NCBI GenBank assembly: GCA_030017955.1
Contig: JASEGR010000025.1
Location: forward strand, 1-36,688
Direction of reading: 5' to 3'
DNA: 36,688 bases
DNA from: Candidatus Eisenbacteria bacterium
GTDB lineage: Bacteria; Eisenbacteria; RBG-16-71-46; JASEGR01
Within the stretch, counting starts at the first letter, position 1. Each line of letters begins with the position of its first letter. The position numbers were made by a program, and so were the translations under genes. The notes under the pieces are model-generated. The model was not told where the DNA came from. It ran no database searches and saw only the letters and a program-made list of their open reading frames with translations. Positions 8,323 through 27,481 of the stretch are shown piece after piece.

Positions 8323-10823
<2,501 letters not shown>

Positions 10824-10825
10824 AT

Positions 10826-12135: not shown

Positions 12136-12210
12136 AATGCCGTCTGTCCAGGGAAGCTGCCGTTGTTCTGCGGGAAAACCGGACGGAATACGGGAGAGAA
12201 CGATTCACTG

Positions 12211-13215
12211 ATGAAAGTGAAAGACGTTACATCGGCACTTGAGATTGCCAAAGAAGTGATCTCCAAGGAAGGGCTGGCACTTCTTTCACTTTCTGAGAAG
12301 CTTGGCCCCGGCTTCGCGGAAGCAGTTGACGGCATCCTGAAAACAAGAGGGCGAGTGATCGTTTCTGGAGTCGGAAAGTCCGGGATAGCTGCGAGCAAGA
12401 TTGCCGCCACGTTCACAAGCACCGGAACACCCTCCTTTTTTATTCATCCCGTGGAGGCCGTTCATGGAGACCTCGGACTGGTGACTTCCGAAGACAGTGT
12501 ACTCTTTGTCTCAAAGAGCGGCGAATCCGACGAGCTGTGCGAGCTTCTCCCCGTGGTAAAGAGACTCGGACCTCTCATAATCAGCATAACAGAGAGCCGG
12601 AAAAGCTCTCTTGGTCGCGAGTGCGATATCGTGATAGAGACAGGCCGGCTGGAAGAGGCATGCCCTTTTGACCTGGTTCCCACGACCAGCACGACTGCAG
12701 TTCTTGCGGTTGGCGATGCCCTCGCGATAGCTCTTCTTAGAAAAAGGGGACTGAAGAAAGAGGATTTTGCTTTCTTTCACCCTGGAGGGGCAATCGGAAG
12801 GACAATGAGGCTCAGGGTGGGGGACATAATGCGCAGGGGAGACGAGGTGCCCATTGTTTCAGAAGATGAGACGATGAAGGGTGCGATTCTTGAGATTATG
12901 AAGAAAAGGCTCGGAGTCACGACTGTTGTCAACCGGGAAGGAAAACTCACAGGCATTGTTACTGATGGCGACATAAAGAGGATCCTGGTCAGGAACGAAG
13001 ACATAATGAAGCTCAGGGTGGGGGATGTAAAGACGCCCGGACCCAGAACCATTCAGGAGGATGAGCTGGTTGCGACGGCGGTGCGGCTGATGGAGGAGAA
13101 TACTCCGGGGCCGATAACAAGCCTGGTCGTTGTGGATGAGCACATGGTTCCCGTGGGACTCCTTCACATGCACGACTGTTTAAGGGCAGGGCAGGCAGCT
13201 CGCCCCAACCGATGA
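12211..13215 (+). CDS. kdsD: Arabinose-5-phosphate isomerase (KdsD/KpsF)
   Basis: This enzyme converts ribulose 5-phosphate to arabinose 5-phosphate, the first committed Kdo precursor. An N-terminal SIS domain (about residues 30-180) contains SGVGKSG, SKSGESDE and VPTTSTTAVLAVGDALA; the FHPGGAIGR turn leads into two CBS domains (about 205-330). The 334-aa length matches E. coli KdsD (328). ATG 12211 is chosen by family length; a TTG at 12163 would add 16 residues. The kdsA-kdsC-kdsD order covers three consecutive steps of the pathway. Confidence 0.95.
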   Translation: MKVKDVTSALEIAKEVISKEGLALLSLSEKLGPGFAEAVDGILKTRGRVIVSGVGKSGIAASKIAATFTSTGTPSFFIHPVEAVHGDLGLVTSEDSVLFVSKSGESDELCELLPVVKRLGPLIISITESRKSSLGRECDIVIETGRLEEACPFDLVPTTSTTAVLAVGDALAIALLRKRGLKKEDFAFFHPGGAIGRTMRLRVGDIMRRGDEVPIVSEDETMKGAILEIMKKRLGVTTVVNREGKLTGIVTDGDIKRILVRNEDIMKLRVGDVKTPGPRTIQEDELVATAVRLMEENTPGPITSLVVVDEHMVPVGLLHMHDCLRAGQAARPNR

Positions 13216-13242
13216 AATGCCGGACAGTGTGCTTTTACCAGG

Positions 13243-13272
13243 GACCGCGAGCGGTCTTCTTCGCGTGAAGAA
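13243..13272 (+). promoter_or_regulatory. Two adjacent hairpins between kdsD and lpxL
   Basis: GACCG (13243-13247) pairs with CGGTC (13252-13256), and TTCTTC (13257-13262) pairs with GAAGAA (13267-13272) immediately after. Both are perfect with four-base loops and lie in a 90-base gap. Neither is followed by a T tract. They may modulate mRNA stability or translation of the acyltransferase gene; no known family is recognised. Confidence 0.3.
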
Positions 13273-13305
13273 TGGAGAGAACCGACGCTCCGGGTCCGCC
13301 TTGCC

Positions 13306-14208
13306 ATGAAGAAAAACCGTTTCCTCAAGAGAATAAGGAATTACCTTCTCTATTGGTTTGTTCTCCTGGTGACAATGGCTGCGAGAGTTCTCCCCAGGAG
13401 ACTCATGCTTTCGATAATGGGGCTGCTTGGAACCGGTGCCTACTATCTTCTTTCGAAGCCGAGGAAGAAGACAATAGAAAATCTTGAAATAGCATTTCCC
13501 GAGCTTCGTCACGAGGAGAGGCGGGCAATCGCCAAAGGTGTCTTCAGGGATATTGGACGCAATCTTGTGGACATACTGAGGCTGCCCTTTATGTCCGCCT
13601 CGGAACTTGATAAGATTGTCAGGGTAAGAGGAAAGGAAGTGCTGGATGATGTGCTCTCGAGGAGAAAGGGAGTCGTAGTTGTGACGGGACACATTGGTTC
13701 CTGGGAGCTTCTGGCCTCGTATTTCTCCAGGAAGGGGTATCGCGTCAACGCTCTGATGAGGACTCTCTACGATCCGAGACTGGACAGCCTGCTGGCACGA
13801 ATAAGAGAATCCGCCGGCATTGTGCAGATACCCAGAGATGGTGCTCTTGGAAAGATCTTCAGGGCGCTGAAGAGGGGCGAGATTGTCGGCTTCTTGCTTG
13901 ATCAAGATACAAAGGTTGAGGGGACGTTTGTTGAGTTCATGGGGAAGGAGGCCTACACCCCGGTGGGTGCAGTGAGGGTCGCCATGAGGTCCGGAGCTCC
14001 AATCATCCCGGCGGCAATCAGGCTGGATGCGGACGGCAAGCATGTCATAGAGATCGGCAGGGAACTCGATCTTACGTTTTCGGGAGACTATGCCGAAGAC
14101 ATCAAGATGAACACCCAGAAGTGCACAAGCAGTCTTGAGGCATTCATAAGAGCAACTCCAACTCAGTGGGTGTGGATGCATGAGAGATGGAAAACCAGGC
14201 CGGCCTGA
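13306..14208 (+). CDS. Lysophospholipid/lipid A acyltransferase (LpxL/HtrB family)
   Basis: This inner-membrane-associated enzyme adds a secondary acyl chain to Kdo-lipid A. The 300-aa protein has an N-terminal hydrophobic segment (about residues 13-48), the catalytic HxxxxE motif (His129 and Glu134 in GHIGSWE), and a QDTKVEGTFVEFMG block typical of the family. The C terminus has TQWVWMHERWKTRP, another hallmark. Sequence does not show whether it acts like LpxL, LpxM or LpxP. No strong ribosome binding site precedes ATG 13306. The end overlaps lptC by 29 bases. Confidence 0.9.
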   Translation: MKKNRFLKRIRNYLLYWFVLLVTMAARVLPRRLMLSIMGLLGTGAYYLLSKPRKKTIENLEIAFPELRHEERRAIAKGVFRDIGRNLVDILRLPFMSASELDKIVRVRGKEVLDDVLSRRKGVVVVTGHIGSWELLASYFSRKGYRVNALMRTLYDPRLDSLLARIRESAGIVQIPRDGALGKIFRALKRGEIVGFLLDQDTKVEGTFVEFMGKEAYTPVGAVRVAMRSGAPIIPAAIRLDADGKHVIEIGRELDLTFSGDYAEDIKMNTQKCTSSLEAFIRATPTQWVWMHERWKTRPA

Positions 14209-14773
14209 CCGGCGGATCGAACTAAGACTTCGATTCTTCTCTGTGTATCTGTTTATCCTGTTCTCCATTTTCTTTTCCTGCGAGAAGGGGAAGGAAGGAG
14301 TACCTTCGTCGGTATCCGGCGACATCCCGGATGAAGAGGTGATTGGCTTCTCGGTGACGGAGACGACCTCCGGCAGGAAGGAATGGATACTGCGGGCAAA
14401 ATGGGCGGGAGTCTACAATGATAAGGGCATCACTCTCTCAAAGAGTGTGGCGATAGAGTTCTTCGATGAGACGGGAAAGAAGTACTCGGACCTGACATCC
14501 CGAGAGGGCATCCTCGAACACGGATCGAGCAACATGAGGGCAAAAGGCGACGTCGTTGTCATAACCGATGAGGGCACGAAGCTTGAGACTGACGAGTTGG
14601 TATGGCTCAACGGCCCGGGCAAGATTGTATCCGATGGATTCGTGAAAATAACAAGGAAGAAAGATATCATTACGGGAATCGGATTTGAGAGTTACCCTGA
14701 TCTTAAGCAGTTTGAGATAAAGAAGGACATAAAAGGCGAGCTTATCGGGGAGAAGGCGCTAGAGAAGAAATAG
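14180..14773 (+). CDS. lptC: LPS export system protein LptC (lipoprotein-like)
   Basis: LptC is the bitopic periplasmic component that passes LPS from the LptBFG transporter to the LptA bridge. The 197-aa protein has a hydrophobic N terminus ending SIFFSC, with Cys34 possibly a lipidation site. A beta-strand-rich region follows (about residues 50-190) with GFSVTETTSGRKEWILRA and SREGILEHGSSNMRAKGDV, typical of the LptC/OstA fold. ATG 14180 lies inside the acyltransferase gene, and no clearly better start is visible. LptA, usually encoded between lptC and lptB, is absent here. Assignment rests on context as well as fold-like pattern. Confidence 0.8.
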   Translation: MRDGKPGRPDRRIELRLRFFSVYLFILFSIFFSCEKGKEGVPSSVSGDIPDEEVIGFSVTETTSGRKEWILRAKWAGVYNDKGITLSKSVAIEFFDETGKKYSDLTSREGILEHGSSNMRAKGDVVVITDEGTKLETDELVWLNGPGKIVSDGFVKITRKKDIITGIGFESYPDLKQFEIKKDIKGELIGEKALEKK

Positions 14774-14788
14774 GACTGAGAGGGTCGA

Positions 14789-15562
14789 TTGAAAGAGTCA
14801 CCCGCCAAAGACATCAGCATCCCGGACAAGAAGAAGCTGGATGGTTTTCTCAAGGCAGAAAACCTCGGCAAGCGCTATGGTAAGGTGAAAGTGGTGAATG
14901 ATGTCTGCATTGGAATCCGAAGGGGAGAGGTGGTCGGTCTTCTCGGGCCGAATGGAGCCGGAAAGACCACTACATTCTACATGATAGTTGGAATTCTCAG
15001 ACCGGATGAAGGAAAGATCTCTCTGGGCGACCGGGACATAACGGCTCTCCCGATGCATGAAAGAGCACGGCTTGGCATAGGGTATCTTTCGCAGGAATCA
15101 TCGATCTTCAGAAGGCTGACCGTGAGAGAAAACATCCTGGCAATTTTGGAGACTTTGCCGATCTCTAAGGGTGAAATAGGACGCAGGCTCGACTCATTGA
15201 TGGGGGAGCTGGACATCCGGGGCATTGCTGACCGGAAGGCTTTCAATCTTTCCGGCGGAGAGAGACGGCGGGTGGAGATTACACGGGCCCTTGCAACTGA
15301 ACCTTCATACATCCTTCTCGACGAACCGTTTGTCGGGATAGACCCGATTGCGGTCGCGGAGATACAGGAAATCGTTCTGAGGCTCAAGAAAAAAGGACTG
15401 GGAGTCCTGATAACCGACCACAGTGTCCGGGAAACCTTGACGACAACCGATAGAGCCTACATAATGTTCGAAGGCGAAATAGTCGTCTCCGGAACCGCAG
15501 ATGAGCTGACGCGGGACGAGAAAGCAAGGAAGTTCTATCTCGGAGAAAAATTCAGACTCTAG
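14789..15562 (+). CDS. lptB: LPS export ABC transporter ATP-binding protein
   Basis: LptB is the cytosolic ATPase that powers LPS extraction with LptF/LptG. The Walker A GPNGAGKTTT ends at about residue 62 (Lys59), the signature LSGGE is residues 154-158, Walker B ILLDEP has Asp178/Glu179, and the switch His is 211. It resembles LptB in the YLSQESSIFRRLTVRENI stretch. TTG 14789, after GAGAGGG, gives 257 aa with about 20 extra N-terminal residues relative to E. coli; a shorter start is possible. LptF and LptG are not in the window. Confidence 0.93.
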   Translation: MKESPAKDISIPDKKKLDGFLKAENLGKRYGKVKVVNDVCIGIRRGEVVGLLGPNGAGKTTTFYMIVGILRPDEGKISLGDRDITALPMHERARLGIGYLSQESSIFRRLTVRENILAILETLPISKGEIGRRLDSLMGELDIRGIADRKAFNLSGGERRRVEITRALATEPSYILLDEPFVGIDPIAVAEIQEIVLRLKKKGLGVLITDHSVRETLTTTDRAYIMFEGEIVVSGTADELTRDEKARKFYLGEKFRL

Positions 15563-15573
15563 GTCAAACCTCT

Positions 15574-17013
15574 ATGGAAATGAAACATCAGATATACCTG
15601 ACGCAGAAGCCCACGCTGGTGATGACGCAAAGGCTTCAGCAAGCCCTCAAGCTCCTTCAAGTTCCCACCTTAGAACTCCAGCAGATCCTTAAGCAGGAGC
15701 TCATGGCAAATCCTGTTCTTGAGGAGGTGGAAGAAACCGAGGTACAGCCGACCGAAAGGGCTGAAGAGGAAGAGGAGAAGGCAAAGGACGAGGACAAAAA
15801 CGAGGTGGACTGGTCGGAGTTCTGGCCTGATTCGAATGAATACGCTGCCCCGAGAAGCTATGAAGCCTCATCGGAGGAGTTCTACGAGCGGACACCGGTT
15901 ACCAAGCTCTCCCTGAGGGACCTTCTCTTGAGCCAGGCGAGGCTGACTCTCACGACGCCCGAGGACCAGGAGATCGCAGAAGAAATTCTTGGATCGATAG
16001 ACGAAGCCGGATATCTTGTCCTGCATGAACCGGACGAGAGCGGCAAATTGAGAAAGGTTGAAGATCCGGTCGCTGACATCGCCTCGCGGCTTGGAAAACC
16101 GGCTGAGAAAGTGCTGGAGGTGCTGCGCAGGATTCAGGAATTTGAGCCCGCAGGAGTCGGCGCTCGCGACCTTCAGGAGTGTCTTCTCATCCAGCTCAGG
16201 GCAAAGGGCGTGGAGGACGGCCTGCCGTCACGGATTCTGAATGAGTGTTTCGAGATGTTCAAGGCAAGGAAGGGCGCCGAGATTTCGAGGATCCTCAAGG
16301 AATCGCCTCAGAAGATCCAGGACGCCTTTGATGCCATTGCATCACTCGATCCAAAGCCGGGGATGACTGTTTCCGGAGACGAGGCAAGGTATGTTGTTCC
16401 TGATCTTGTTGTCGATAAGGTCGCCGATGAATATGTAATTTTTCTCAATGACAGAAACGTCCCGAGGTTAAGGATAAATCCTTCCTACAGGGAGCTTCTG
16501 AGCAAGGAGAACAAGAATTCCGAGGCGAAGAAGTTCATACAGGGGAAACTGAACTCGGCGAAGTGGTTTATCCAGACAATAGAGCAAAGAAGGAGGACTA
16601 TGGTCAAGGTCATGAAGACCATAGTGGAGGAGCAGAAGGAGTTTTTCGAAAAGGGTCCCGGATTTCTGAAGCCGCTCACGCTTCAGCAGATAGCAAATGA
16701 AATAAGCATGCACGAGTCAACCGTGAGCAGGGTGACAAACGGGAAGTACGTTCAGACTCCTCGTGGAGTGTTCGAGCTCAAGTATTTCTTCTCTAGCAGG
16801 CTTGAGACAGAGGACGGCGAAGGAGCATCCGCAAAGAGCGCACGAGGATCGATTTTGAAGATGGTCCAGGAGGAGGACAAGAAGGCCCCTCTCAGCGATC
16901 ACGAAATTGCCGCAAGATTGAGGGAAAGAGGTCTCAGGATAGCGAGGAGGACGGTAGCGAAGTACAGAGAACTCCTGGGAATTCTCCCTGCAAGGTACAG
17001 GAAACGCGTCTAG
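15574..17013 (+). CDS. rpoN: RNA polymerase sigma-54 factor
   Basis: Sigma-54 directs RNA polymerase to -24/-12 promoters that need an enhancer-binding ATPase. The 479-aa protein has the glutamine-rich region I (KPTLVMTQRLQQALKLLQ), an acidic region II (about residues 50-80), the core-binding region, and the C-terminal RpoN box ARRTVAKYR at 457-465. ATG 15574 is 11 bases after the lptB stop. The lptB-rpoN-hpf order is widely conserved, but here a dispersed repeat separates rpoN from hpf. No enhancer-binding regulator is encoded in the window. Confidence 0.97.
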   Translation: MEMKHQIYLTQKPTLVMTQRLQQALKLLQVPTLELQQILKQELMANPVLEEVEETEVQPTERAEEEEEKAKDEDKNEVDWSEFWPDSNEYAAPRSYEASSEEFYERTPVTKLSLRDLLLSQARLTLTTPEDQEIAEEILGSIDEAGYLVLHEPDESGKLRKVEDPVADIASRLGKPAEKVLEVLRRIQEFEPAGVGARDLQECLLIQLRAKGVEDGLPSRILNECFEMFKARKGAEISRILKESPQKIQDAFDAIASLDPKPGMTVSGDEARYVVPDLVVDKVADEYVIFLNDRNVPRLRINPSYRELLSKENKNSEAKKFIQGKLNSAKWFIQTIEQRRRTMVKVMKTIVEEQKEFFEKGPGFLKPLTLQQIANEISMHESTVSRVTNGKYVQTPRGVFELKYFFSSRLETEDGEGASAKSARGSILKMVQEEDKKAPLSDHEIAARLRERGLRIARRTVAKYRELLGILPARYRKRV

Positions 17014-17032
17014 CTCCATTTTGGGGCGGCCC

Positions 17033-17249
17033 CCAGTGTGCCGTCCCAGAAATAGCTTCACGAAATGCAGGGCGGTTTCATAAGGCACACTGCCAGGGGG
17101 TATGAGGGGGTCGCGGCCGACCCCCTTAAGGGGTTACAGTTGCGAAAGTTGCCGGTGGCAAGTTTCGAAATGTCATAGGGGCGATAGCCCCTGTGAAAGT
17201 GCTGGGGCACCGCATAATAAGTTCGCGAATTTATGTGACACAGCACTGG
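17033..17249 (+). repeat. Dispersed structured repeat, copy 1 (rpoN-hpf)
   Basis: This is a complete copy of a non-coding element also found after ahcY and nadD. Visible pairings in order: AGTGTGCC 17035-17042 with GGCACACT 17084-17091; GGGGGTCG 17106-17113 with CGACCCCC 17118-17125; CGAAA-TTGCC with GGCAA-TTTCG (one G-G mismatch) near 17144-17168; AGGGGC 17177-17182 with GCCCCT 17187-17192; AGTGCTG 17198-17204 with CAGCACT 17241-17247. The ends CCAG and CTGG are each one transition from CTAG. A further hairpin, TGGGG-CGGC-CCCCA, lies just left of it after the rpoN stop. The right end abuts the hpf ribosome binding site. Confidence 0.85.
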
Positions 17250-17266
17250 AAGGAGGAGAGCAGACA

Positions 17267-17599
17267 ATGGAGATAACCTTCAAGACGAGGCATTGTGAAC
17301 TCCCTGAAACCCTGAAAGAACAAACTGAAGCGAGACTTCACAAGCTTGAAAGGTTCTCTGGAAAGATTGTGGAAGCACATGTAATCGTGGGGGTTGAGAA
17401 ATACAGACACATTGCCGAGGTGACGCTCAGCGGCAATGGTTCCGAGATCGTGAGCAAGTGCGAGTCCGACGAGATGGGCCAGGCTTTGAAGAAGGTCATG
17501 GATGTTATCGAGAGAAGGGTACGGGAAAGAAAGGAGAAGCTTGTTTCCAGGAAAGGCAAGAGGGGTGCAAACCTGAAGTCGCTCCCTCTCTTGGAGTAG
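17267..17599 (+). CDS. hpf: Ribosome hibernation promoting factor, short form
   Basis: HPF/RaiA-type proteins bind the 30S decoding centre and promote inactive ribosome dimers in slow growth. The 110-aa product starts EITFKTRHCELPETLKEQTEARLHKLERF after Met and has the AHVIVGVEKYRHIAEVTL strand, typical of the family; it lacks the long C-terminal dimerisation domain. ATG 17267 follows AAGGAGGAG. The frame is open upstream to 17102, but that part lies within the repeat and is not HPF-like. hprK starts four bases after its stop. Confidence 0.93.
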   Translation: MEITFKTRHCELPETLKEQTEARLHKLERFSGKIVEAHVIVGVEKYRHIAEVTLSGNGSEIVSKCESDEMGQALKKVMDVIERRVRERKEKLVSRKGKRGANLKSLPLLE

Positions 17600-17602
17600 A
17601 AG

Positions 17603-18571
17603 TTGGAAAAAATAACGGCTGCCAAGCTCTACGAGGACATCAAAGAAGAGCTTCAACTCGAGCAACTCACAATTTCTCTTGAGTCAAAAGTCGCGGTAAC
17701 GGTGAGCGACACAAACAGGCCGGGCCTGTGCCTGGCCGGTTTCACCGATAACTTCCTCAACGAACGTATTCAGATCCTTGGTCAGACGGAAATAGCCTAC
17801 CTCGCAAGCCTGAACGACAGCCAGAGAAAGGCAGCAATCGATAACCTTTTCAAGTTTCCGGTCCCGTGCATAATCGTGACAAAGGGACTGGAGGTTCCCG
17901 AATACTGCGTGGCATGCGCAGAAAAATATACCGTCCCGCTGCTGCGCACGCCCCAATCCACCACGCCTTTCATACATGAGCTGACAGCCTACCTTGACTG
18001 GGCCTTTGCACCAGAGACCATTGTGCACGGCTCGCTTGTGGATGTTTATGGCATTGGTCTACTGTTTACGGGTAAGAGCGGAATCGGCAAGAGCGAATGT
18101 TCACTTGATCTTGTGGAGCGCGGGCACAGGCTTGTTGCCGATGACGTTGTGACGATCACGAAGCGGCACGGCGACGTGCTGGTCGGGACCGGAAGGAAGC
18201 TGATGAGACACCATATGGAGATAAGAGGCCTTGGCATAATCGATGTTCAAGGCATATTCGGGATCAGGTCTATCAGGCTTCAGAAGAGGATTGAGGTCGA
18301 GGTGAATCTGCAGGAATGGACAGACGGCAGAGACTATGAAAGAATCGGCCTCGATGACCAGACGACGACTATCCTGGATGTGAAAATACCATTTGTTACG
18401 ATACCCATAATTCCCGGAAAGAACATTACGGTGATTGCAGAAGTTGTGGCTCTCAATTACCTCGTGAAGGCCTATGGCTATCACCCTGCCCGGGAGCTGA
18501 ACAGGCAGCTCGTCGAGCTGATGAAGGAGAGGAGTCTCGCCAAGCGCTGGGTGAGAAATGATCTGGAGTAG
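17603..18571 (+). CDS. hprK: HPr kinase/phosphorylase
   Basis: HprK phosphorylates Ser46 of HPr with ATP or pyrophosphate and reverses the reaction, coupling carbon status to sugar uptake. The 322-aa protein has the catalytic His142 region (VHGSLVDVYG), a Walker A GKSGIGKSE at 157-165, and the family signature MEIRGLGIIDVQGIFG beginning at residue 205. The start is TTG 17603, supported by GGAG just upstream. Its likely substrate HPr, with Ser46 present, is encoded in the same run at 23165. In diderm bacteria HprK often sits in this rpoN-hpf neighbourhood. Confidence 0.96.
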   Translation: MEKITAAKLYEDIKEELQLEQLTISLESKVAVTVSDTNRPGLCLAGFTDNFLNERIQILGQTEIAYLASLNDSQRKAAIDNLFKFPVPCIIVTKGLEVPEYCVACAEKYTVPLLRTPQSTTPFIHELTAYLDWAFAPETIVHGSLVDVYGIGLLFTGKSGIGKSECSLDLVERGHRLVADDVVTITKRHGDVLVGTGRKLMRHHMEIRGLGIIDVQGIFGIRSIRLQKRIEVEVNLQEWTDGRDYERIGLDDQTTTILDVKIPFVTIPIIPGKNITVIAEVVALNYLVKAYGYHPARELNRQLVELMKERSLAKRWVRNDLE

Positions 18572-18607
18572 TAGTTCCCGGCCATGTTCGGACGAGCCTG
18601 ATTCGAT

Positions 18608-18988
18608 ATGGTGAACGGCCTCATTCTGACTCATGGACGCCTTGGGGACGAGCTAATCAGGACAGGTTCACTGATCGCAGGTGAGGACTGCGGGCTCAAG
18701 GCCATATCCAATGAGGGACTGTCGCCTCAGGGCATGGTCGAGATGCTCGACAGAGAACTAGATGGCATTGATGACGGGGACGGAGTAATTCTTTTTGTTG
18801 ATCTCGTCGGCGGAAGTTGTGAGGTTGCGAGCCAGGCGATTGCCCGTCTGAGAAAGAGTGCAAGAGTGTTGTGCGGAGTTAACCTCGCAATGATTGTGGC
18901 TTTCATTCAGTACCGGTCGAGATTGCCCATTTCAGAGCTTGTTGAGAAAGTAGAAGAGAGAGGAAGAAGATCAATTCGATCTGACTAG
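18608..18988 (+). CDS. PTS mannose/fructose-family EIIA component
   Basis: This cytosolic phosphocarrier accepts phosphate from HPr and passes it to EIIB. The 126-aa sequence begins MVNGLILTHGRLGDELI, placing the active His at position 9 as in EIIA-Man (His10 of E. coli ManX). The VDLVGGSCEVASQAIA segment is also typical of the fold. In E. coli, EIIA and EIIB are fused; here they are separate. A stand-alone EIIA-Man can be regulatory, but matching B, C and D genes follow, so a transport role is most likely. Confidence 0.92.
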   Translation: MVNGLILTHGRLGDELIRTGSLIAGEDCGLKAISNEGLSPQGMVEMLDRELDGIDDGDGVILFVDLVGGSCEVASQAIARLRKSARVLCGVNLAMIVAFIQYRSRLPISELVEKVEERGRRSIRSD

Positions 18989-19005
18989 GACCGTTGCCAC
19001 GGCCA

Positions 19006-19491
19006 ATGCCGCTCTGTCTTGTCAGGATAGATGACCGTCTCATTCACGGCCAGGTATCGGTCGGGTGGGTGAGGGTATTATCGCCTGACCGGATACTGAT
19101 TGCAGACGATGGCGTTGCCGGCACCGAGTGGCAAAAGGAAGCGTACGTAAATGCAACCCCGCAGGGTCTCAAGGTCACAATCCTCTCACTAGCGGACGCC
19201 CTCGATTTTCTCGGATCCAAAGTCCCTCATGACGAAAGGACGGTTCTTCTCGTCAGCTCTCCGGCCGACCTCCTGAAGCTGGTCGAGGGAGGGCTGAGCA
19301 TTAGCGAAGTCAATGTCGGCGGCGTGCATTTCAGGGAAGGGCGAAGGAAATTGCTGCCTTACCTTTATCTTGATTCCGAAGACGAAGACTCGTTGAGGAA
19401 GCTGGCCGCGAAAGGGATAAGGCTTGAAGCGAGAGATGTGCCCACGGCAAAGGGAATTGATGTAATATCCCTGATAGAGGAGCGTAAATGA
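19006..19491 (+). CDS. PTS mannose/fructose/sorbose-family EIIB component
   Basis: EIIB takes phosphate from EIIA onto a histidine and donates it to the incoming sugar. The IDDRLIHGQV motif gives the phosphorylated His14, and VNVGGVH later in the protein is also conserved. I chose ATG 19006 because the protein then begins PLCLVRIDDRLIHGQV like relatives (161 aa); a TTG at 18994, nearer a GGA-type site, would add four residues. The gene ends in an ATGA overlap with the GH57 gene, implying coupled translation. Confidence 0.92.
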   Translation: MPLCLVRIDDRLIHGQVSVGWVRVLSPDRILIADDGVAGTEWQKEAYVNATPQGLKVTILSLADALDFLGSKVPHDERTVLLVSSPADLLKLVEGGLSISEVNVGGVHFREGRRKLLPYLYLDSEDEDSLRKLAAKGIRLEARDVPTAKGIDVISLIEERK

Positions 19492-21638
19492 AGAAGATTC
19501 ATTTTCTCTTTGGAGTTCACAATCACCAGCCCGTTGGAAACTTCGAATGGGTGCTGGAGTCTGCCTGCGAGAAAGCATATTTGCCCTTTCTGAAAGCTCT
19601 GCAAAAGCATCCGGGCGTCAGAATAAGCCTGCACGTGAGTGGGAATCTGCTTGAGTGGCTGGCTGACAAAAAACCCGAATACGTGGAGATCCTCGGAAAA
19701 CTGATCGAAAACGGACAGGTGGAACCGATGACCGGGGGTTTCTACGAGCCGATACTCCCGGCGATCAGTGACCAGGACAAAATTGGGCAGATTGAGAAGC
19801 TCACCAAGCTGATTGAGAAACTGTTTGGAGTGACTCCGAAAGGGATGTGGCTTGCAGAGAGGGTCTGGGAGCCAAGTCTCGCAAAACCGATTGGGAAGGC
19901 GGGGGTCGAGTACACTCTTGTTGACGACTATCATTTTCTCTCAACCGGAATCGCGGAGGGTGAGCTTCACGGCTACTTTGTGACTGAAGAAGATGGCGAA
20001 ACGCTCAATGTTTTTCCGATAAGCAAAAGGCTGAGATACATGATTCCCTTCCATGAGCCCGAAGAGACTGTCCGCTATCTTTCGGAATGGAAGGAGAAGA
20101 TTCCGGGAGAGGCCGTGATAGTGGCAGATGATGGCGAGAAGTTCGGAGTATGGCCGGGGACCTACGAGCTGGTCTATGAGCAAGGATGGCTCGAGAAATT
20201 CTTTTCCCTTGTCGAATCGAATTCCGAGTGGCTCCTTTCCGTTCCCTTCGGAGAATACGCGGCTCGGGAGAAGCCGCTCGGCCGCATTTATCTTCCGACG
20301 GCATCATACCCCGAAATGATGGAATGGGCGCTGCCGCCGGCCGCTCAGTTGGCTTGCTCTTCATTTGTGGATCGGCTGAAAAAAGATGGACATTACGAGC
20401 AATGCGGCGGGTTTGTGCACGGCGCTTTCTGGAGGAACTTCCTCGTCCGGTATCCCGAGAGCAATAGGCTTCACAAACGCGTTCTCTTTGCGAGAGAGAG
20501 GCTTGAGGAGCTAAAGAATCACAAAAAGGTCTCGAAGGACACTTACGAGTCGGCTCTGGACTGGATCTGGAGGGCTCAAGTGAACTGCCCGTACTGGCAC
20601 GGGGTGTTCGGGGGACTTTATCTCCCGCACTTGAGGGGGAGCGCCTACTCGAATCTCATCGCTGCAGAGGGTCTTGTCGCGCGGGAAGCGCTGGACAGCG
20701 GGCTTGATGTTTCTACGCACGTGCTCGACATCAACAAGGACGGGTTTGAAGAGATTCTCGTGGAGACAAGAGAGCTTTCCATGCTGATCGAGCCCGAGAA
20801 AGGCGGCGGAGTATTTGAGCTTGGATGGAGAAAGCACGATTTCAATTTCGCCAACTGTCTCGCAAGAAGATTCGAGGCTTATCATGAGCGGCTGCGCGCC
20901 GGTACCGGGGATGAGGAAGCGGACACGGGAGAAGTAAGGACGATACACGACGAGATCAAATCCAAGGAGAAGGGACTTGAAAAAAAGCTCTTCTATGATT
21001 GGTACGAAAGGGGCTGCTTTCTTGACCACTTTCTTGGTAAGGAGGTTGCGCTGGAGGATTTCTCTGCGGCAAGATACCATGAAGCAGGCGATTTCGTTAA
21101 CAGTTCCTACTCGTTCTCTGTCAGAGGAACAAGGGATAGTTCTCTTGCGACACTTACACGAACCGGCAGCGTGGAGACCGGTGGGGAGAAGAGAAGGCTC
21201 GAAGTGATGAAGAGAATCTTTGTTGATGCGTCTCATCCATTCGTCAGAGCAGAATATGAGTTGCTGAATCGGTCACAAGAGGCTCTCAATCTCCGCTTCG
21301 GAATTGAGTTCAACTTCACTTTTCCGGAAGATTCTGCGGGAAAGAGAATTATCAAGATCTCCGGTGACAGGGAGACGACCTTTGATCTCCAAACCTCGGG
21401 CGTTTCCGCCATTGCTAATGGATTTGTCATTCAGCCGTCCTCTGGACATCCAGCCCTGGAGCTGGCACTTGAGATTCCCGCAGGGCTCTGGAGATTTCCG
21501 GTGGAGACGGTCTCGCTTTCCGAATCGGGACTCGAACGTGTTTTTCAATGCTCGTCGGTGATGCCGCTCTGGGAGATCGCCATCCCGCCCGGTGAAATCT
21601 GGCAAACGGAGCTCACCCTGCGCTTCAGGAACAGGTGA
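19488..21638 (+). CDS. GH57 4-alpha-glucanotransferase/alpha-amylase-like enzyme
   Basis: This glycoside hydrolase family 57 enzyme transfers or hydrolyses alpha-1,4-glucans. The 716-aa sequence follows the Thermococcus litoralis glucanotransferase pattern: FGVHNHQPVGNF at the N terminus, GFYEPILPAI, WLAERVWEP with nucleophile Glu124, DDYHFLSTG, and DDGEKFGVWPGTYE with the acid Asp at 214/215. A C-terminal beta-sandwich-type region (about residues 400-716) matches the usual extra domain. No signal peptide is seen, so it is probably cytosolic and acts on glycogen or maltodextrin. It lies between EIIB and EIIC, overlapping EIIB by four bases and ending four bases before EIIC, an uncommon place for such a gene. 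Confidence 0.92.
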   Translation: MKKIHFLFGVHNHQPVGNFEWVLESACEKAYLPFLKALQKHPGVRISLHVSGNLLEWLADKKPEYVEILGKLIENGQVEPMTGGFYEPILPAISDQDKIGQIEKLTKLIEKLFGVTPKGMWLAERVWEPSLAKPIGKAGVEYTLVDDYHFLSTGIAEGELHGYFVTEEDGETLNVFPISKRLRYMIPFHEPEETVRYLSEWKEKIPGEAVIVADDGEKFGVWPGTYELVYEQGWLEKFFSLVESNSEWLLSVPFGEYAAREKPLGRIYLPTASYPEMMEWALPPAAQLACSSFVDRLKKDGHYEQCGGFVHGAFWRNFLVRYPESNRLHKRVLFARERLEELKNHKKVSKDTYESALDWIWRAQVNCPYWHGVFGGLYLPHLRGSAYSNLIAAEGLVAREALDSGLDVSTHVLDINKDGFEEILVETRELSMLIEPEKGGGVFELGWRKHDFNFANCLARRFEAYHERLRAGTGDEEADTGEVRTIHDEIKSKEKGLEKKLFYDWYERGCFLDHFLGKEVALEDFSAARYHEAGDFVNSSYSFSVRGTRDSSLATLTRTGSVETGGEKRRLEVMKRIFVDASHPFVRAEYELLNRSQEALNLRFGIEFNFTFPEDSAGKRIIKISGDRETTFDLQTSGVSAIANGFVIQPSSGHPALELALEIPAGLWRFPVETVSLSESGLERVFQCSSVMPLWEIAIPPGEIWQTELTLRFRNR

Positions 21639-21642
21639 ACAC

Positions 21643-22341
21643 ATGGCGGAGATTCTCAAAATCATAATCGCGGGGGGAATCTCAAGCCTGGATTCAACCG
21701 CCGCGTGGCAGGTCATGATTAGCCAGCCGCTTGTCAACGCGGTCGTGACCGGGCTTATTCTTGGAGATGTGACCACCGGAGCGGTTCTGGGGACCCTCTT
21801 TCAGATAGTGTGGGGCGGTTCTCTTCCGGTTGGAGCGTCGGCGTTCCCGGACGGCGCCACCGCCGGCGTAATCGGAACCGGCGGCGCGATTCTTCTCAAG
21901 AAGAACCTGCCCGGGATCGACGGCAACGCTGTTCTTCTCTGGTCGCTTCTCATTTCGCTCGGTTTCGGGATTATCGGTGCAAGGACTGTAATATACATGC
22001 GAAGGATGAATGAATCGCTGATGCGGCGTGCGGACGAGTTTGCGAGGGAAGGAAAGGTCGCTTCTCTTGAGTTACTCCACCTGGTCGGGGTGGTTGTTTC
22101 GTTCGTACGAGGCATTCTGGTTACCGCCTCCGGTCTTCTGGTTCTTCTTATCTCGGGATTGGCGGTCCTCCCGAAGCTGGGCTCGACCCTCTCTCCCGCA
22201 TTTCAGCCCGTGCAGATTGTCATCTGGTCGATGGGTATCTCGATATTCTGTGCGATATTTGTTAGAAAGAAATCAAGGATTGTGCCCTTCGTTCTCGGCC
22301 TGGTTTTCGCGGCCTGTCTTGCCTGGGGACATTTGCTATGA
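21643..22341 (+). CDS. PTS mannose-family EIIC (membrane) component
   Basis: EIIC is one of two membrane subunits of a mannose-type PTS permease. The 232-aa product is hydrophobic with about six to seven membrane segments. The GDVTTGAVLGTLFQIVWGG and PVGASAFPDGATAGVIG stretches are typical of the family. ATG 21643 is chosen because the open frame upstream to 21592 is only a shadow of the GH57 end. The stop overlaps the EIID start in ATGA. Sugar specificity cannot be read from sequence; mannose, glucose or amino sugars are possible. Confidence 0.9.
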   Translation: MAEILKIIIAGGISSLDSTAAWQVMISQPLVNAVVTGLILGDVTTGAVLGTLFQIVWGGSLPVGASAFPDGATAGVIGTGGAILLKKNLPGIDGNAVLLWSLLISLGFGIIGARTVIYMRRMNESLMRRADEFAREGKVASLELLHLVGVVVSFVRGILVTASGLLVLLISGLAVLPKLGSTLSPAFQPVQIVIWSMGISIFCAIFVRKKSRIVPFVLGLVFAACLAWGHLL

Positions 22342-23168
22342 AAGGCGGGAGAAAAGTCAGGAGAACTGATTTGCTCCTTGCCGGATTGAGGGCATTCTAT
22401 CTTCAGGGATCGTGGAACTACGAAAGGATGCAGGCACTTGGATTCTGCTTCTCCCTTGTCCCGGTCGCCAGGCGTCTGTCCGGATCAAAAGCCGAGCTTG
22501 TTTCTTTCATGAGAAGACATCTTGGTTTTTTCAATACCAATCCCGTCATGGCATCTTATGCCATCGGGGCGACAGCCAGGCTGGAGGAAGACAGACTCTC
22601 AGGGAAGGGACTTAGCGACGAGGAGCTTGTCAGGTTCAAGGGCTCGATCTCAAGCTTCTTTGGTTCGGTCGGAGATGAACTGTTCTGGGGCACCTTAAGA
22701 CCCCTGTCAGCGCTCCTCGGCATCTTACTCGTCTCACGGGGAGATACCTTTGCTGGTGTTGTTTTTCTTCTTGTAAGCTATAATGTTCCTCATCTCTATT
22801 ACCGGCTGAGGGGAGTGTTCTCGGGGTACGACGCAGGCCTCGCGGTCACGAAAACAGGAGGAAGGATAAGCCCTTTGGCTCTTTCGAAGTGGCTCGGAAT
22901 CACCGGCGCGTTCCTCGGCGGAACCTACACCGCCGCCTTTTTCCTGATGGGCGCCGGTACGGGCAGCAAAGGCGCTATCTTGTTTCTTGGAGGCGCCCTG
23001 GTTTCCTACTACTTGCTGAGAAAGAGGATTCTTGGAGCGACTGCTGTCGCAATCATACTGACACTGGCCGTGACCCTTCTGGTTCTTTTTGCCTGCATTC
23101 TGACCGGCGGGGATGCACTGGGCCTGCTTCGGCATGGAATCGCGCCGCTCCTTCTGAGATGGGCATGA
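22338..23168 (+). CDS. PTS mannose-family EIID (membrane) component
   Basis: EIID pairs with EIIC to form the sugar channel. The 276-aa protein shows the cytosolic N-terminal region with FYLQGSWNYERMQALGFCFSLVP and FFNTNPVMASYAIGATARLEE, both family hallmarks, then DELFWGTLRPLSALLGILL and several hydrophobic segments toward the C terminus. ATG 22338 overlaps the EIIC stop by four bases, and its own stop overlaps the HPr start in ATGA, so EIIC, EIID and HPr form a tightly coupled series. Confidence 0.93.
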   Translation: MKGGRKVRRTDLLLAGLRAFYLQGSWNYERMQALGFCFSLVPVARRLSGSKAELVSFMRRHLGFFNTNPVMASYAIGATARLEEDRLSGKGLSDEELVRFKGSISSFFGSVGDELFWGTLRPLSALLGILLVSRGDTFAGVVFLLVSYNVPHLYYRLRGVFSGYDAGLAVTKTGGRISPLALSKWLGITGAFLGGTYTAAFFLMGAGTGSKGAILFLGGALVSYYLLRKRILGATAVAIILTLAVTLLVLFACILTGGDALGLLRHGIAPLLLRWA

Positions 23169-23431
23169 GCGAGGCGACTGTGGAGATAGACAATGAGCTT
23201 GGTCTTCACGCAAGGCCCGCTGCAGAGTTTGTCAAGGAGGCGTCCAAGTTCAGCTCTGAAATCTTTGTGGTGAAGAATGGGGTCCAGATCAACGGAAAGA
23301 GCATAATGGGAATCCTCACGCTGGCCGCAGAGCGGGGGAGCAGGATAACAATAAAAGCCAAAGGGACCGACGAGGACCTGGCGGTTCAAGCCTTGGTCTC
23401 GCTCGTGAAGTCAAGGTTTGGAGAAAAGTAG
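23165..23431 (+). CDS. ptsH: Phosphocarrier protein HPr
   Basis: HPr carries phosphate from Enzyme I to EIIA components. The 88-aa protein has the active-site motif ELGLHARPAA with His15, and the regulatory site NGKSIMG with Ser46, the residue HprK phosphorylates. Having both residues at canonical positions marks it as a true HPr that is a candidate HprK substrate. ATG 23165 lies in an ATGA overlap with EIID; an ATG six bases earlier is an equally open alternative. The frame upstream is a shadow of EIID. ptsI follows two bases after the stop. Confidence 0.96.
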   Translation: MSEATVEIDNELGLHARPAAEFVKEASKFSSEIFVVKNGVQINGKSIMGILTLAAERGSRITIKAKGTDEDLAVQALVSLVKSRFGEK

Positions 23432-23433
23432 GA

Positions 23434-25200
23434 ATGAGTGAGGAAAAGGAAATATCAGTTTCGGGGATAGGAGTTTCTCCCGGAGTGGCTATCGGAAAGG
23501 TATTCCTCCTTCCAAGAGAAGAGGTCGTCGTGGAAGAGAGGAAAATATCCAAGAGCCGCGTGGCATCCGAGGTAAAAAGGTTCCTTGCCGCCGTGGAGAA
23601 GACCAAGAAAGAGGTCGGACGAATAAGGTCGGCGCTCAAGGAGGAGATGGGCGAAGAGTACGCGAAAATTTTTGATGCCCACCTGATGATTCTGGAAGAT
23701 GAGCTTGCAATTGAAAATACGATAAAAGCGATAAGACAGAAAGGGAAAAACGCTGAATACGTGTTCAGGGCAATCGTTTCCAAAATAGCCGACAGCATGG
23801 AAACCTCTTCCAACGAATACCTCAGAGACAGGGCCCTGGACGTGAGGGACGTTAAGAAAAGAGTCTTGCGAAATTTGCTTGAAGAAAAGGGAGTCGGGCT
23901 TTCGAGGATCGGAGGCAAGGCTCTCCTCATTGCTCATGACCTGGCGCCCAGCGAGGCTGCCTTGATGGACAAAGCGAAGATACTTGGCTTTGCGACAGAC
24001 GTTGGCGGGCGGACCTCGCATGCTGCAATAATGGCGCGCGCACGGGGGATACCCGCGGTTGTCGGCTTGAAGAATGTGACCAAGATCGCAGGAATGGGGG
24101 AAACTGCAGTCATAGACGGCTCGACAGGCAAGGTCGTAATCAACCCTTCTCAAAAGACTCTCAGGTTCTATGAAAAGAAGCGTAAACAGATAATGGCCCA
24201 TGAGAAGGACCTTGGAGACATAAAGAGCCTCCCAAGCGTGACAGTTGATGGTCACGGTGTAGAGCTATCAGCCAACATGGAACTTCCGGAAGACATAGAA
24301 GGGGCGATCGGGAGCGGAGCCCAGGGAATCGGGCTCTATAGAACCGAGTTCTTCTATCTTGCCCAGTCGAGACTCCCGACGGAGGAAGAACAATACGAAA
24401 ACTATCGTAGCATCGCAGAAAGAGTCTATCCCAAGACGGTAATAATAAGAACAGTGGACGTAGGTGGAGACAAATTTGCCTCGTATCTTGGCACGAACAA
24501 GGAATCCAATCCGTTCCTGGGATGGAGGGGCATAAGATTCTCGCTCCAGAGGGAAGAGATATTCAGAACACAGTTGAGAGCGATTTTCAGGGCCGGAGCC
24601 AAGGGAAATGTGAAGGTGATGTTCCCGATGGTGTCGGCCCTCGAGGAGCTGAGAAGAGCCAATGCCATCTGTGGCGAGGTTAAGGAAGAGCTGATAAAAG
24701 AAGGGAAAGCTGTTAACGCAGACACCGAGATAGGGATAATGGTGGAAACGCCGTCTGCGGTCATCACATCCGAGTTGCTGGCAAAGGAAACTGATTTCTT
24801 CAGCATCGGAACGAACGATCTGATTCAATACACTCTTGCTGTGGACAGAGGAAACGAGAGGATTGCTCAACTCTACGAGCCCTTCCATCCCGCCATCTTG
24901 AGGGCTCTGAAGATGACAGTGGATGCAGCCCATGCAAACCACATATGGGTCGGGGTCTGTGGAGAGATGGGTGGTGACCCTCTCGGCGCTCTTCTGCTTG
25001 TCGGGATGGGGGTAGATGAGCTAAGCGTAAGTCCATTTGTTCTACCGGAGATAAAGACGGCGATCCGTTCGGCAAAGTACTCTGAGCTGAAGGAACTCGC
25101 CGAGCATGTTCTTCTACTTTCCACGGCAACCGAAGTCAAGGGTGCGATATTGGAGAGGGTAGGAGACAAGTTTCCACAGTTCTTGATCTGCAATATCTAG
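23434..25200 (+). CDS. ptsI: PTS Enzyme I (phosphoenolpyruvate-protein phosphotransferase)
   Basis: Enzyme I transfers phosphate from phosphoenolpyruvate to HPr, the first PTS step. The 588-aa sequence carries the phosphorylated His196 in GGRTSHAAIMARA, the PEP-binding LYRTEFFYL (Arg303), GTNDLIQYTLAVDR, and the C-terminal catalytic Cys509 in VCGEMGGDP. Length and domain order (N-terminal HPr-binding and His domain, C-terminal TIM barrel) are standard. There is no GAF or other extra domain that would mark the nitrogen-type PtsP. A gap of about 115 bases follows with no clear terminator. Confidence 0.97.
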   Translation: MSEEKEISVSGIGVSPGVAIGKVFLLPREEVVVEERKISKSRVASEVKRFLAAVEKTKKEVGRIRSALKEEMGEEYAKIFDAHLMILEDELAIENTIKAIRQKGKNAEYVFRAIVSKIADSMETSSNEYLRDRALDVRDVKKRVLRNLLEEKGVGLSRIGGKALLIAHDLAPSEAALMDKAKILGFATDVGGRTSHAAIMARARGIPAVVGLKNVTKIAGMGETAVIDGSTGKVVINPSQKTLRFYEKKRKQIMAHEKDLGDIKSLPSVTVDGHGVELSANMELPEDIEGAIGSGAQGIGLYRTEFFYLAQSRLPTEEEQYENYRSIAERVYPKTVIIRTVDVGGDKFASYLGTNKESNPFLGWRGIRFSLQREEIFRTQLRAIFRAGAKGNVKVMFPMVSALEELRRANAICGEVKEELIKEGKAVNADTEIGIMVETPSAVITSELLAKETDFFSIGTNDLIQYTLAVDRGNERIAQLYEPFHPAILRALKMTVDAAHANHIWVGVCGEMGGDPLGALLLVGMGVDELSVSPFVLPEIKTAIRSAKYSELKELAEHVLLLSTATEVKGAILERVGDKFPQFLICNI

Positions 25201-25314
25201 ACTTTTTCTCCAGGGTATTGCTCACTCGGAATCAAGGATAGGAACAATCACAAATCTGCTTATCTGCCGAGTTCGGCATAAGTGTAGAGGGCCAAGTTTT
25301 CCTTGGGGGTGCAA

Positions 25315-26403
25315 ATGGTTTCCTTAGATAATCTGCCTCGGCGTGCAGAAATCGATCCTGAAGGCATGCTGGACCTTGCATCATCAATGGCTGACCTCGC
25401 CGGGCGAGGGTTTGAAACCGGAAGGGCAGCCCTGAATGGCATCAGGTTCGGAGAGATTTCTTCAGTTGCGTTCTGTGGGATGGGCGGGTCTGCCATTGCA
25501 GGTGACTTGCTTTCATCGACGTTTGAGGACTCCGTCAAAATTCCGTTTTCCGTCCGTAGGGACTACTATCTCCCGGGGTTCGTAGAGAAGAACAGTCTGG
25601 TGATTTGCTCGAGCTACTCGGGCAACACGGAGGAGACCCTCTCTGTATTCAGGGAGGCGCTGGAGATTGAGGGAGTAAGGATCCTCACAGTCGCCTCGGG
25701 TGGGGAGCTGCTTGAGCAGTCAAAGAAGAAAGGCTTGCCGCACGTGGAGCTTCCTTCAGGCATGAGGCCTAGAGCGGCGCTTGGGTCGAGCCTCTTCTCT
25801 GTTCTTGGTGCTCTTTCCGGCGTCAAGGACGAGATTCCGGGGTTCAAGAAAGAGAGGGTCGAGGCTGAGGTGTCCGAAGCTCTTGAGGTTACGGGAAAGA
25901 AAGTGTTGGCCTGCAAGGAATCCTCCCCGGAAGAAAACAACCCGGCAAAACTCCTGGCGAAACGGCTGCACGGGAAGGCGCCCATCGTCTATAGTTCTGC
26001 ATCATTAACACACTGTGTTGGAATACGATGGAAGAATCAGTTCGAGGAAAATGCGAAGACTTTCTGCCATGCAAACAGGCTTCCCGAGCTCAATCACAAT
26101 GAGATTGAGGGCTACAAGTTTCCCGAATCACTCAGAAGGGACGCTCGCGTCCTTTTCCTGAGGGACCGGGATGAAGGGGAAAGAAACTCTCTCAGGGTCG
26201 AGGCGACCCGGGTGGTCCTCACGGAGGCAGGAATAGCCAGCGAGGAACTCTCAACTGAGGGTAAGGGACCTCTTTCCAGAACATTCTCTTTGATTTGCCT
26301 GGGTGACCATGCTAGTATCTATCTCGCCTTCTTGAATGGTGTTGACCCGGCGGCGACCCTTTCAATCGACAGGCTCAAGTTCATTCTGGCCAAGCGGCGC
26401 TGA
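25315..26403 (+). CDS. Bifunctional phosphoglucose/phosphomannose isomerase
   Basis: This SIS-fold enzyme interconverts glucose 6-phosphate, mannose 6-phosphate and fructose 6-phosphate (TIGR02128-like, best known from archaea). The 362-aa protein has CGMGGSAIAGD at residues 54-64, SSYSGNTEETL from 99, and the paired catalytic residues in QFEENAK (Glu244/245) and ELNHNEI (His261), the same spacing as in Pyrobaculum. ATG 25315 follows a GGGGGTG ribosome binding site; TTG 25303 would overlap that site. Its position after a mannose-type PTS fits a role in feeding hexose phosphates into glycolysis. Confidence 0.9.
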   Translation: MVSLDNLPRRAEIDPEGMLDLASSMADLAGRGFETGRAALNGIRFGEISSVAFCGMGGSAIAGDLLSSTFEDSVKIPFSVRRDYYLPGFVEKNSLVICSSYSGNTEETLSVFREALEIEGVRILTVASGGELLEQSKKKGLPHVELPSGMRPRAALGSSLFSVLGALSGVKDEIPGFKKERVEAEVSEALEVTGKKVLACKESSPEENNPAKLLAKRLHGKAPIVYSSASLTHCVGIRWKNQFEENAKTFCHANRLPELNHNEIEGYKFPESLRRDARVLFLRDRDEGERNSLRVEATRVVLTEAGIASEELSTEGKGPLSRTFSLICLGDHASIYLAFLNGVDPAATLSIDRLKFILAKRR

Positions 26404-26500
26404 CCTCAAGAAGACCGGCATACCTTGGCTCCTCGAGCGGACGGAACAGGGATATCCGGATGACTGGGGCAGGGATGTCGGCCAGGTGGAGAAGGAGGAG

Positions 26501-27481
26501 ATGAAAGCTAAAGCGGTGATTCCGGTAGCAGGTGTAGGCACAAGGTTGAGGCCTCACACACATACGGTCCCGAAAGCGCTGATCAACGTTGCAGGAAAGC
26601 CAATTGTAGCGCACATCCTTGATGAACTTGTGGGCCTGGGAATTACCGAAGTGGTGCTAATCATCGGCCACATGGGTCAGAGGATAAGGGAATTCGTCGA
26701 TAGCCATTACAAGATTCAGGTATCCTATGTGGAGCAGAGGGAAAGAAGAGGGCTCGGACATGCGATATTCCTGGCCCAGAAGCACATTGGGGATGCTCCG
26801 GTTTTGATAGTACTGGGGGACACTATATTCCAGGCTGATTTCTCAGGGATCGTTGACGGCCAGAGCAGTCTCATCGGAGTCAAAGCTGTTCCAGACCCAT
26901 CGAGGTACGGGGTTGTTGAGACATCAAATGGCGTGGTGCAACGGCTTGTCGAGAAGCCGGACAAACCGCGCAGCAATCTTGCCATTGTCGGCATATACTA
27001 CCTTGTCAATTCAAAGCTCCTGTTTGAATGTCTGGGCGAGCTCATAAGAAGCAAGGTGAGAACCAAGGGTGAGTATCAGCTTACGGATGCCCTTGAGCTC
27101 ATGATAGAGAAGGGAGAGAAGATAGGGGTCTTTCCGATCGAGAAATGGATGGATTGTGGGGAGACCGAAACGCTCCTTGAGGCCAACAGGGAGCTCCTCA
27201 ACATGAATTCAAAACCATGCAAGATAGATAGCGGAATCATAATCCCGCCTGTCGCAATCGATCCTTCGGCCAAAATTGAGAACTCCATCGTAGGCCCGCA
27301 CGTTTCGGTTGCCGCATTTGTTAGCTTGAAGAACTCAATCGTGAGAAACTCGATAATAAACGAGAGAGCTTCCGTTCAGGATATGCTCCTGGACGCATCG
27401 GTCGTCGGTGAGCGCTCGATCGTGGAGGGCGCATTCAAGAAGCTCAATGTTGGAGATTCATCCGAGATTCAATTGACCTAA
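26501..27481 (+). CDS. Sugar-1-phosphate nucleotidyltransferase with left-handed helix tail
   Basis: This protein of about 326 aa transfers a nucleotidyl group to a sugar 1-phosphate (RmlA/GlmU/Man-1-P class). The N-terminal Rossmann-like domain (1-230) has [21 protein letters not shown], the nucleotide-binding signature, plus [20 protein letters not shown] and [11 protein letters not shown]. The C-terminal part (about 245-326) has hexapeptide-like repeats ([30 protein letters not shown]). ATG 26501 is at the family N terminus, although the GGAGG is only a few bases away; GTG 26487 is an alternative start. The exact sugar and nucleotide are not determined. Confidence 0.85.

Follow-up and report, generated by a model that had tools for sequence, protein, structure and literature searches.

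A predicted GH57 4-alpha-glucanotransferase gene housed in a mannose-type PTS operon of Candidatus Eisenbacteria, and its alternation with GH77

Introduction

In the proteobacterial locus around rpoN, the genes follow the order kdsD-lptC-lptA-lptB-rpoN-hpf-ptsN-rapZ-npr. For the 4-alpha-glucanotransferases, the usual account, as given in PMC9582752, assigns the GH77 enzyme to bacteria and the GH57 enzyme to hyperthermophiles, the two belonging to different families with different barrel folds. The closest described GH57 protein is the 4-alpha-glucanotransferase of Thermococcus litoralis (PDB 1k1w/1k1x/1k1y), and a lysine in the fourth conserved region of GH57 (logo position 23) is a near-invariant residue of the 4-alpha-glucanotransferases, according to section 10 of PMC6037648. 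In Escherichia coli, the PTS protein HPr interacts with glycogen phosphorylase, as stated in PMC11046441. A search of the open-licence literature returned work on the classification of GH57 and a study of a GH57 transferase, and nothing found there describes a GH57 gene located within a PTS operon. Here we describe such a gene in Candidatus Eisenbacteria and compare its locus with those of related genomes.

Results

The window, by which we mean the whole analysed stretch of 36,688 nucleotides (contig JASEGR010000025.1 of assembly GCA_030017955.1), contains one tight plus-strand row of genes, from an LptB-like ATPase to a nucleotidylyltransferase, that holds both the GH57 gene and a full mannose-family PTS:

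14789..15562, + strand: first gene of the conserved row, presumably an LptB-like ABC ATPase (ORF; upstream of rpoN in the compared loci)
15574..17013, + strand: RpoN, sigma-54 (Pfam and TIGR02395 above cut-off)
17267..17599, + strand, from an internal ATG of ORF 17102-17599: a gene that we take to encode an HPF-like ribosome hibernation factor (ORF; position conserved)
17603..18571, + strand: HprK, HPr(Ser) kinase/phosphorylase, Walker-A K163 (TIGR00679 above cut-off)
18608..18988, + strand: EIIA, mannose family, phospho-His H9 (Pfam EIIA-man above cut-off)
18994..19491, + strand: EIIB, mannose/sorbose family, phospho-His H18 (Pfam PTSIIB_sorb; PDB 1vsq, E 2e-28)
19488..21638, + strand: predicted GH57 4-alpha-glucanotransferase, E124, D215, K218, W222 (Pfam; PDB 1k1w, E 6.5e-150)
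21643..22341, + strand: EIIC, mannose/sorbose membrane subunit (Pfam EII-Sor, 80 bits; PDB 8hfs_Y, E 1.2e-5)
22338..23168, + strand: EIID, mannose-family membrane subunit (Pfam EIID-AGA; PDB 6k1h_Z, E 2.7e-35)
23165..23431, + strand: HPr, H15 and regulatory S46 (TIGR01003 above cut-off)
23434..25200, + strand: Enzyme I (EI) of the PTS, H196 (TIGR01417 above cut-off)
25303..26403, + strand: bifunctional phosphoglucose/phosphomannose isomerase (Pfam bact-PGI_C; TIGR02128 above cut-off)
26366..27481, + strand: sugar-1-phosphate nucleotidylyltransferase (Pfam NTP_transferase; best NCBIfam model rmlA_long, below cut-off)

The left part of this region (12163-18571) shares a KdsD-like SIS/CBS protein, LptC, the LptB-like ATPase, RpoN and the HPF-like protein with the proteobacterial kdsD-lpt-rpoN locus, whereas the ptsN-rapZ-npr genes found there are replaced here by HprK, a full mannose-type PTS and GH57. 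The gene order is conserved in the compared loci across the whole row from the LptB-like gene onward, and the isomerase follows EI in most of the fetched loci. When 16900-25400 was scanned for promoters and terminators, the counts did not clearly exceed those in shuffled sequences (5 against 3.7 and 8 against 9.6, respectively).

The GH57 gene starts with an ATG and encodes 716 amino acids. It overlaps the end of EIIB by four bases through a shared ATGA, and its stop codon lies four bases before the ATG of EIIC, so that the packing described in the earlier note, which had been made from the sequence alone, is borne out by the ORF coordinates, as is its placement of a GH57 gene in a mannose-type PTS operon by Pfam matches to GH57 and PTS domains above cut-off. 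The encoded protein shows the arrangement of a 4-alpha-glucanotransferase, with a catalytic domain (Glyco_hydro_57, PF03065) followed by the middle and C-terminal domains (AmyA-A_glucT_m, PF09094, and AmyA-gluTrfs_C, PF09095), all above cut-off, and its Pfam matches are limited to GH57-type models plus a weak GH38N match. In a sequence search of the PDB, the T. litoralis enzyme (1k1w) matched residues 1-697 and was the sole solved-structure relative reported. No second match to the GH57 protein was found in the own genome (G000; 3.1 Mb, 97% complete). As the earlier note had also remarked, no signal peptide is visible: judged by eye, the N-terminus MKKIHFLFGVHNHQP leads directly into the first GH57 motif and therefore leaves no space for one. 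The protein is predicted to be cytoplasmic.

The active site was assessed in an alignment of 57 full-length homologues from 66 extracted loci, the other nine being short, cut or interrupted. The nucleophile E124 and the acid/base D215, which correspond to E123 and D214 of 1k1w, are kept in all 57, as are E217, K218, W222, N366, W370 and H371, while E79 is kept in 55. K218 occupies logo position 23 in every one of these homologues. With the T. litoralis enzyme, the protein shares the catalytic Glu and Asp, the Lys and the Trp found in the transferase motifs of GH57, and the three Pfam domains, in addition to the 697-residue full-length match. An inactive "like" protein was rejected as a candidate, since both catalytic residues are present. 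The protein differs from the T. litoralis enzyme in its place in a bacterial PTS operon and in Cys367 (window 20586-20588), which replaces Asp354; this column holds Cys in 47 and Asp in 10 of the 57 homologues, two of the Asp rows being PTS-linked. The specificity could therefore differ from that of the T. litoralis enzyme.

The surrounding PTS was then considered. EIIA, EIIB, EIIC and EIID of the mannose/sorbose type are all present above the Pfam cut-off, and the active-site histidines are conserved in every row with data, namely H9 of EIIA (60/60), H18 of EIIB (65/65), H196 of EI (47/47) and H15 of HPr (47/47). The regulatory Ser46 of HPr is likewise found in 47/47 rows with data, and the Walker lysine of HprK in 62/63, the exception being an interrupted frame in G042. 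By sequence, the phosphorelay thus looks intact and equipped with the HprK/Ser46 switch. A degenerate PTS retained for regulation alone is not supported, since the operon has both EIIC and EIID and every one of the histidines is conserved. The four recognisable subunits and their phospho-histidines agree with the mannose-family (ManXYZ-type) PTS, from which this locus differs in that the glucanotransferase gene separates EIIB from EIIC; the window's EIIC is only weakly alike to the solved EIIC proteins (E 1.2e-5).

The EIIB-GH57-EIIC arrangement, which the earlier note had suggested seeking in other genomes, proved to be widespread. In a sample of 47 genomes of the class, the own genome included, HprK was matched in 46 and EIIB in 44. 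GH57 was matched in 25, of which 24 are PTS-linked; the match in G007 (E 1.6e-5, 618-aa frame) is remote, lies on a contig other than that of the EIIB match, and was left out of the counts. EIIB is directly upstream of GH57 in all of the remaining 24 genomes, and EIIC is downstream in 20 of these 24 loci, the other four being cut by contig ends. In a second phylum (centre G071), whose members NCBI lists as Candidatus Eiseniibacteriota, Candidatus Effluviviacota or "bacterium", GH57 was matched in 20/20 genomes, each with EIIB upstream. Together with L059 and L061, which lie outside both groups and also carry EIIB-GH57, the adjacency amounts to 46 genomes. As GH57 holds the same slot in such distant genomes, a recent insertion or an artefact is rejected, and the arrangement is not unique to this genome.

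In the relatives without GH57, the permease persists. EIIB is kept in 20 of the 23 GH57-less class genomes, and in 18 of the 20 fetched GH57-less loci EIIC is the next gene after EIIB, the two being separated by -4 to 37 bases; the remaining two loci, L110 and L116, gave no EIIC match. Another enzyme filling the slot was therefore rejected as a candidate. In addition, a comparison of 15 hand-picked genome pairs showed that permease identity falls no further at the boundaries between GH57-bearing and GH57-less genomes than does the identity of the remaining genes in the operon; the EIIC proteins of G008 (with GH57) and G034 (without) are 73% identical, versus 72% for G008 and G040, which both have GH57.

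These data bear on the possibility that GH57 acts on the sugar imported by the PTS, an alpha-glucoside or its phosphate, so that the enzyme and permease would form one catabolic pathway. The tight packing, the EIIB-GH57 order in 46 genomes and the fact that the window's EIIB is the sole EIIB match in the own genome would fit such a pathway. However, the same EIIA-EIIB-EIIC-EIID set is kept where GH57 is missing, the permease identity is about equal whether or not both members of a pair have GH57, and the alternation with GH77 described below indicates a general role. Furthermore, we know of no GH57 glucanotransferase that acts on sugar phosphates. Little supports a GH57 enzyme specific for the PTS sugar, and we regard this possibility as very unlikely; the suggestion in the earlier note that the permease handles an alpha-glucoside-derived sugar is not supported by the comparison with the GH57-less relatives.

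The origin of the slot was addressed with a GH57 tree. The free tree of 59 rows has a poorly supported backbone and six context changes, with the PTS-linked rows scattered. When all of the 40 EIIB-linked GH57s tested were forced onto one side of a branch, the log likelihood rose by 23.3 over the free tree found, and the AU test did not reject their single origin (p 0.745). GH57 need not have entered the slot several times independently, since the tree that keeps the 40 rows together is more likely; a single origin followed by several losses is thus the most economical interpretation of this unrooted GH57 tree.

A single origin would also suit a historical accident, in which an ancestral GH57 insertion was held in place by selection on the operon and has no functional link with the PTS. 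The operon includes the unrelated housekeeping genes for LptB, RpoN and HPF, its gene order is conserved across the whole row, and the permease is unaffected where GH57 is absent, all of which would agree with such an accident. The other contexts of GH57 speak against it. A homologue search gave 36 GH57 loci, in 20 of which EIIB adjoins GH57 and in 16 of which it does not; among the latter, HprK adjoins GH57 in L034 and L036. GH57 comes after HprK in L034, and L036 has the row HprK-GH57-HPr-EI in a stretch without an EII match. In another lineage, the HprK gene of L117 (G055) is followed by one for an MlaD-domain protein and then by GH57 (9398-13356), so that GH57 is one gene removed from HprK, and the 20-kb stretch of this locus has no match to the window's EII genes. 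The tie of GH57 to HprK and the PTS genes thus outlasts the permease or recurs, although the proximity to HprK in these three loci may again be partly inheritance. We consider a mere accident of history unlikely on balance.

A clear pattern emerged from the distribution of GH77 (MalQ, the amylomaltase; PF02446), which was matched in 22 of the 47 class genomes. Counting the PTS-linked GH57s, 22 genomes have GH57 only, 20 have GH77 only, two (G021 and G042) have both, and three (G026, G028 and G041; completeness 86, 78 and 82%) have neither, which gives a Fisher exact p of 3.7e-8 with kinship ignored. Kinship was taken into account with a quickly built maximum-likelihood tree based on RpoN, HprK, EIIB, EI and LptB, in which many rows are partly filled and which covers 44 of the 47 genomes, G018, G026 and G031 having been left out for lack of an EIIB match and a fetched locus. 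On this tree, GH57 changes state at least seven times. With six independent pairs on starred branches, GH77 changed in the same direction as GH57 in 0/200 pairings and in the opposite direction in four to six of the six pairs, and the kinship-aware sign test on the six pairs gave p 0.031-0.125 (median 0.0625). Among 36 genomes outside the class, not counting G095 and G096, GH77 occurs in 0/20 with EIIB-GH57 and in 4/16 with GH57 elsewhere.

Controls were distributed otherwise: GlgA (PF08323) is found in 22/24 GH57-bearing and 21/23 GH57-less class genomes, and the phosphorylase PF00343 in 17/24 and 21/23, many of the latter family's matches being partial; GH13 is found in 29 of the 47 overall. 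Of the families tried, GH77 alone shows strong mutual exclusion with GH57. GH57 and MalQ would share a reaction, in line with their near-exclusive distribution in the class, and differ in that GH77 lies outside the PTS row in the compared relatives. The four GH57-less genomes G006, G010, G014 and G017, all of family f3, have a phosphorylase match at a distance of 0.9-1.2 kb from GH77, as would suit a role in glucan breakdown. A 1968-aa frame in G021 (C31) contains both GH77 and GH13 matches and is perhaps a fusion of a debranching enzyme and a glucanotransferase.

The alternation by itself does not account for the place of GH57 in the PTS operon, and a regulatory tie might be imagined, in which the phosphorylation state of HPr, EIIA or EIIB controls GH57, by analogy with the control of E. 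coli glycogen phosphorylase by HPr. Besides this precedent (PMC11046441), the phosphorelay and HprK/Ser46 switch, complete by sequence, and the adjacency of GH57 to HprK even in a stretch without EII genes would be consistent with such control. In the GH77-bearing relatives with an EIIB match, however, the GH77 match is on a different contig from that of EIIB, so the glucanotransferase step does not need the PTS neighbourhood, and we judge direct control of GH57 by the PTS to be decidedly unlikely.

Finally, the other glucan enzymes were surveyed. The own genome has a glycogen synthase, GlgA, above cut-off (L137) and two GH13 proteins, the second of which combines neopullulanase/cyclomaltodextrinase-type domains with a glycogen-binding module; neither a GH77 (PF02446) match in the Pfam search nor a PF00343 phosphorylase match was found in this genome. 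The own GlgA and the alternation of GH57 with GH77 are consistent with the link to internal glucan turnover that the earlier note had drawn; the joint expression with sugar import that it added would follow from the operon position. Directly upstream of GlgA, at L137:7908-8918, lies a gene for a GalT/HIT-type nucleotidyltransferase, which may either synthesise or cleave the sugar nucleotide used for glycogen. At L173:5294-7447 (C36) the own genome encodes a GH13 amylase with PKD, FlgD-type Ig and Por secretion-type C-terminal sorting domains, which is likely exported by way of a type IX-like sorting signal of the host.

No PF00343 phosphorylase match was found in the GH57-bearing own genome, G024, G042 and the four genomes of genus g3 (G002, G020, G022 and G025). 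The genus g3 genomes, whose family mates are the above G006, G010, G014 and G017, have GlgA and lack matches to GH13, GH77 and PF00343, and GH57 therefore may substitute for more than GH77 alone in some genomes. For those without a detected phosphorylase, GH57, the mannose-type PTS and the isomerase could be conceived as a self-contained cassette from alpha-glucan to fructose-6-phosphate. GH57 would free glucose from internal glucan, the PTS would use PEP to phosphorylate this glucose, whether still inside the cell or taken back up after leaking out, and so act as the glucokinase of the cell, and the adjoining phosphoglucose/phosphomannose isomerase would then make fructose-6-phosphate. If true, the cassette would serve these seven genomes, but we hold it to be highly improbable.

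Discussion

We conclude that the GH57 protein is probably a cytoplasmic MalQ-like 4-alpha-glucanotransferase that has long resided in the PTS operon and was lost where GH77 serves. On the strength of its sequence and distribution, it most likely serves the cell as the general 4-alpha-glucanotransferase and is housed with the PTS. The enzyme would cut the alpha-1,4-glucan chains of glycogen or maltodextrins and transfer the pieces to other chains. Its gene, apparently long-standing in the rpoN-hprK-PTS operon, would be translated between EIIB and EIIC, and glucan remodelling and the PTS-driven supply of sugar phosphate would thereby be produced jointly. In lineages that acquired or kept GH77, GH57 would have been lost cleanly, with the remaining operon kept.

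Since PMC9582752 describes the GH57 enzyme as that of hyperthermophiles, its use by the bacteria studied here would lie outside the usual account. The repeated exchange of GH57 and GH77 would place two unrelated enzymes at one step of glycogen or maltodextrin metabolism in uncultured lineages, and it supports a function for a bacterial GH57 group in which we found no characterised member. Furthermore, the row around GH57 ties glucan remodelling, at the level of the genes, to a PTS with an HprK switch, by which an effect of the PTS state on carbon stores becomes testable in a simple operon.
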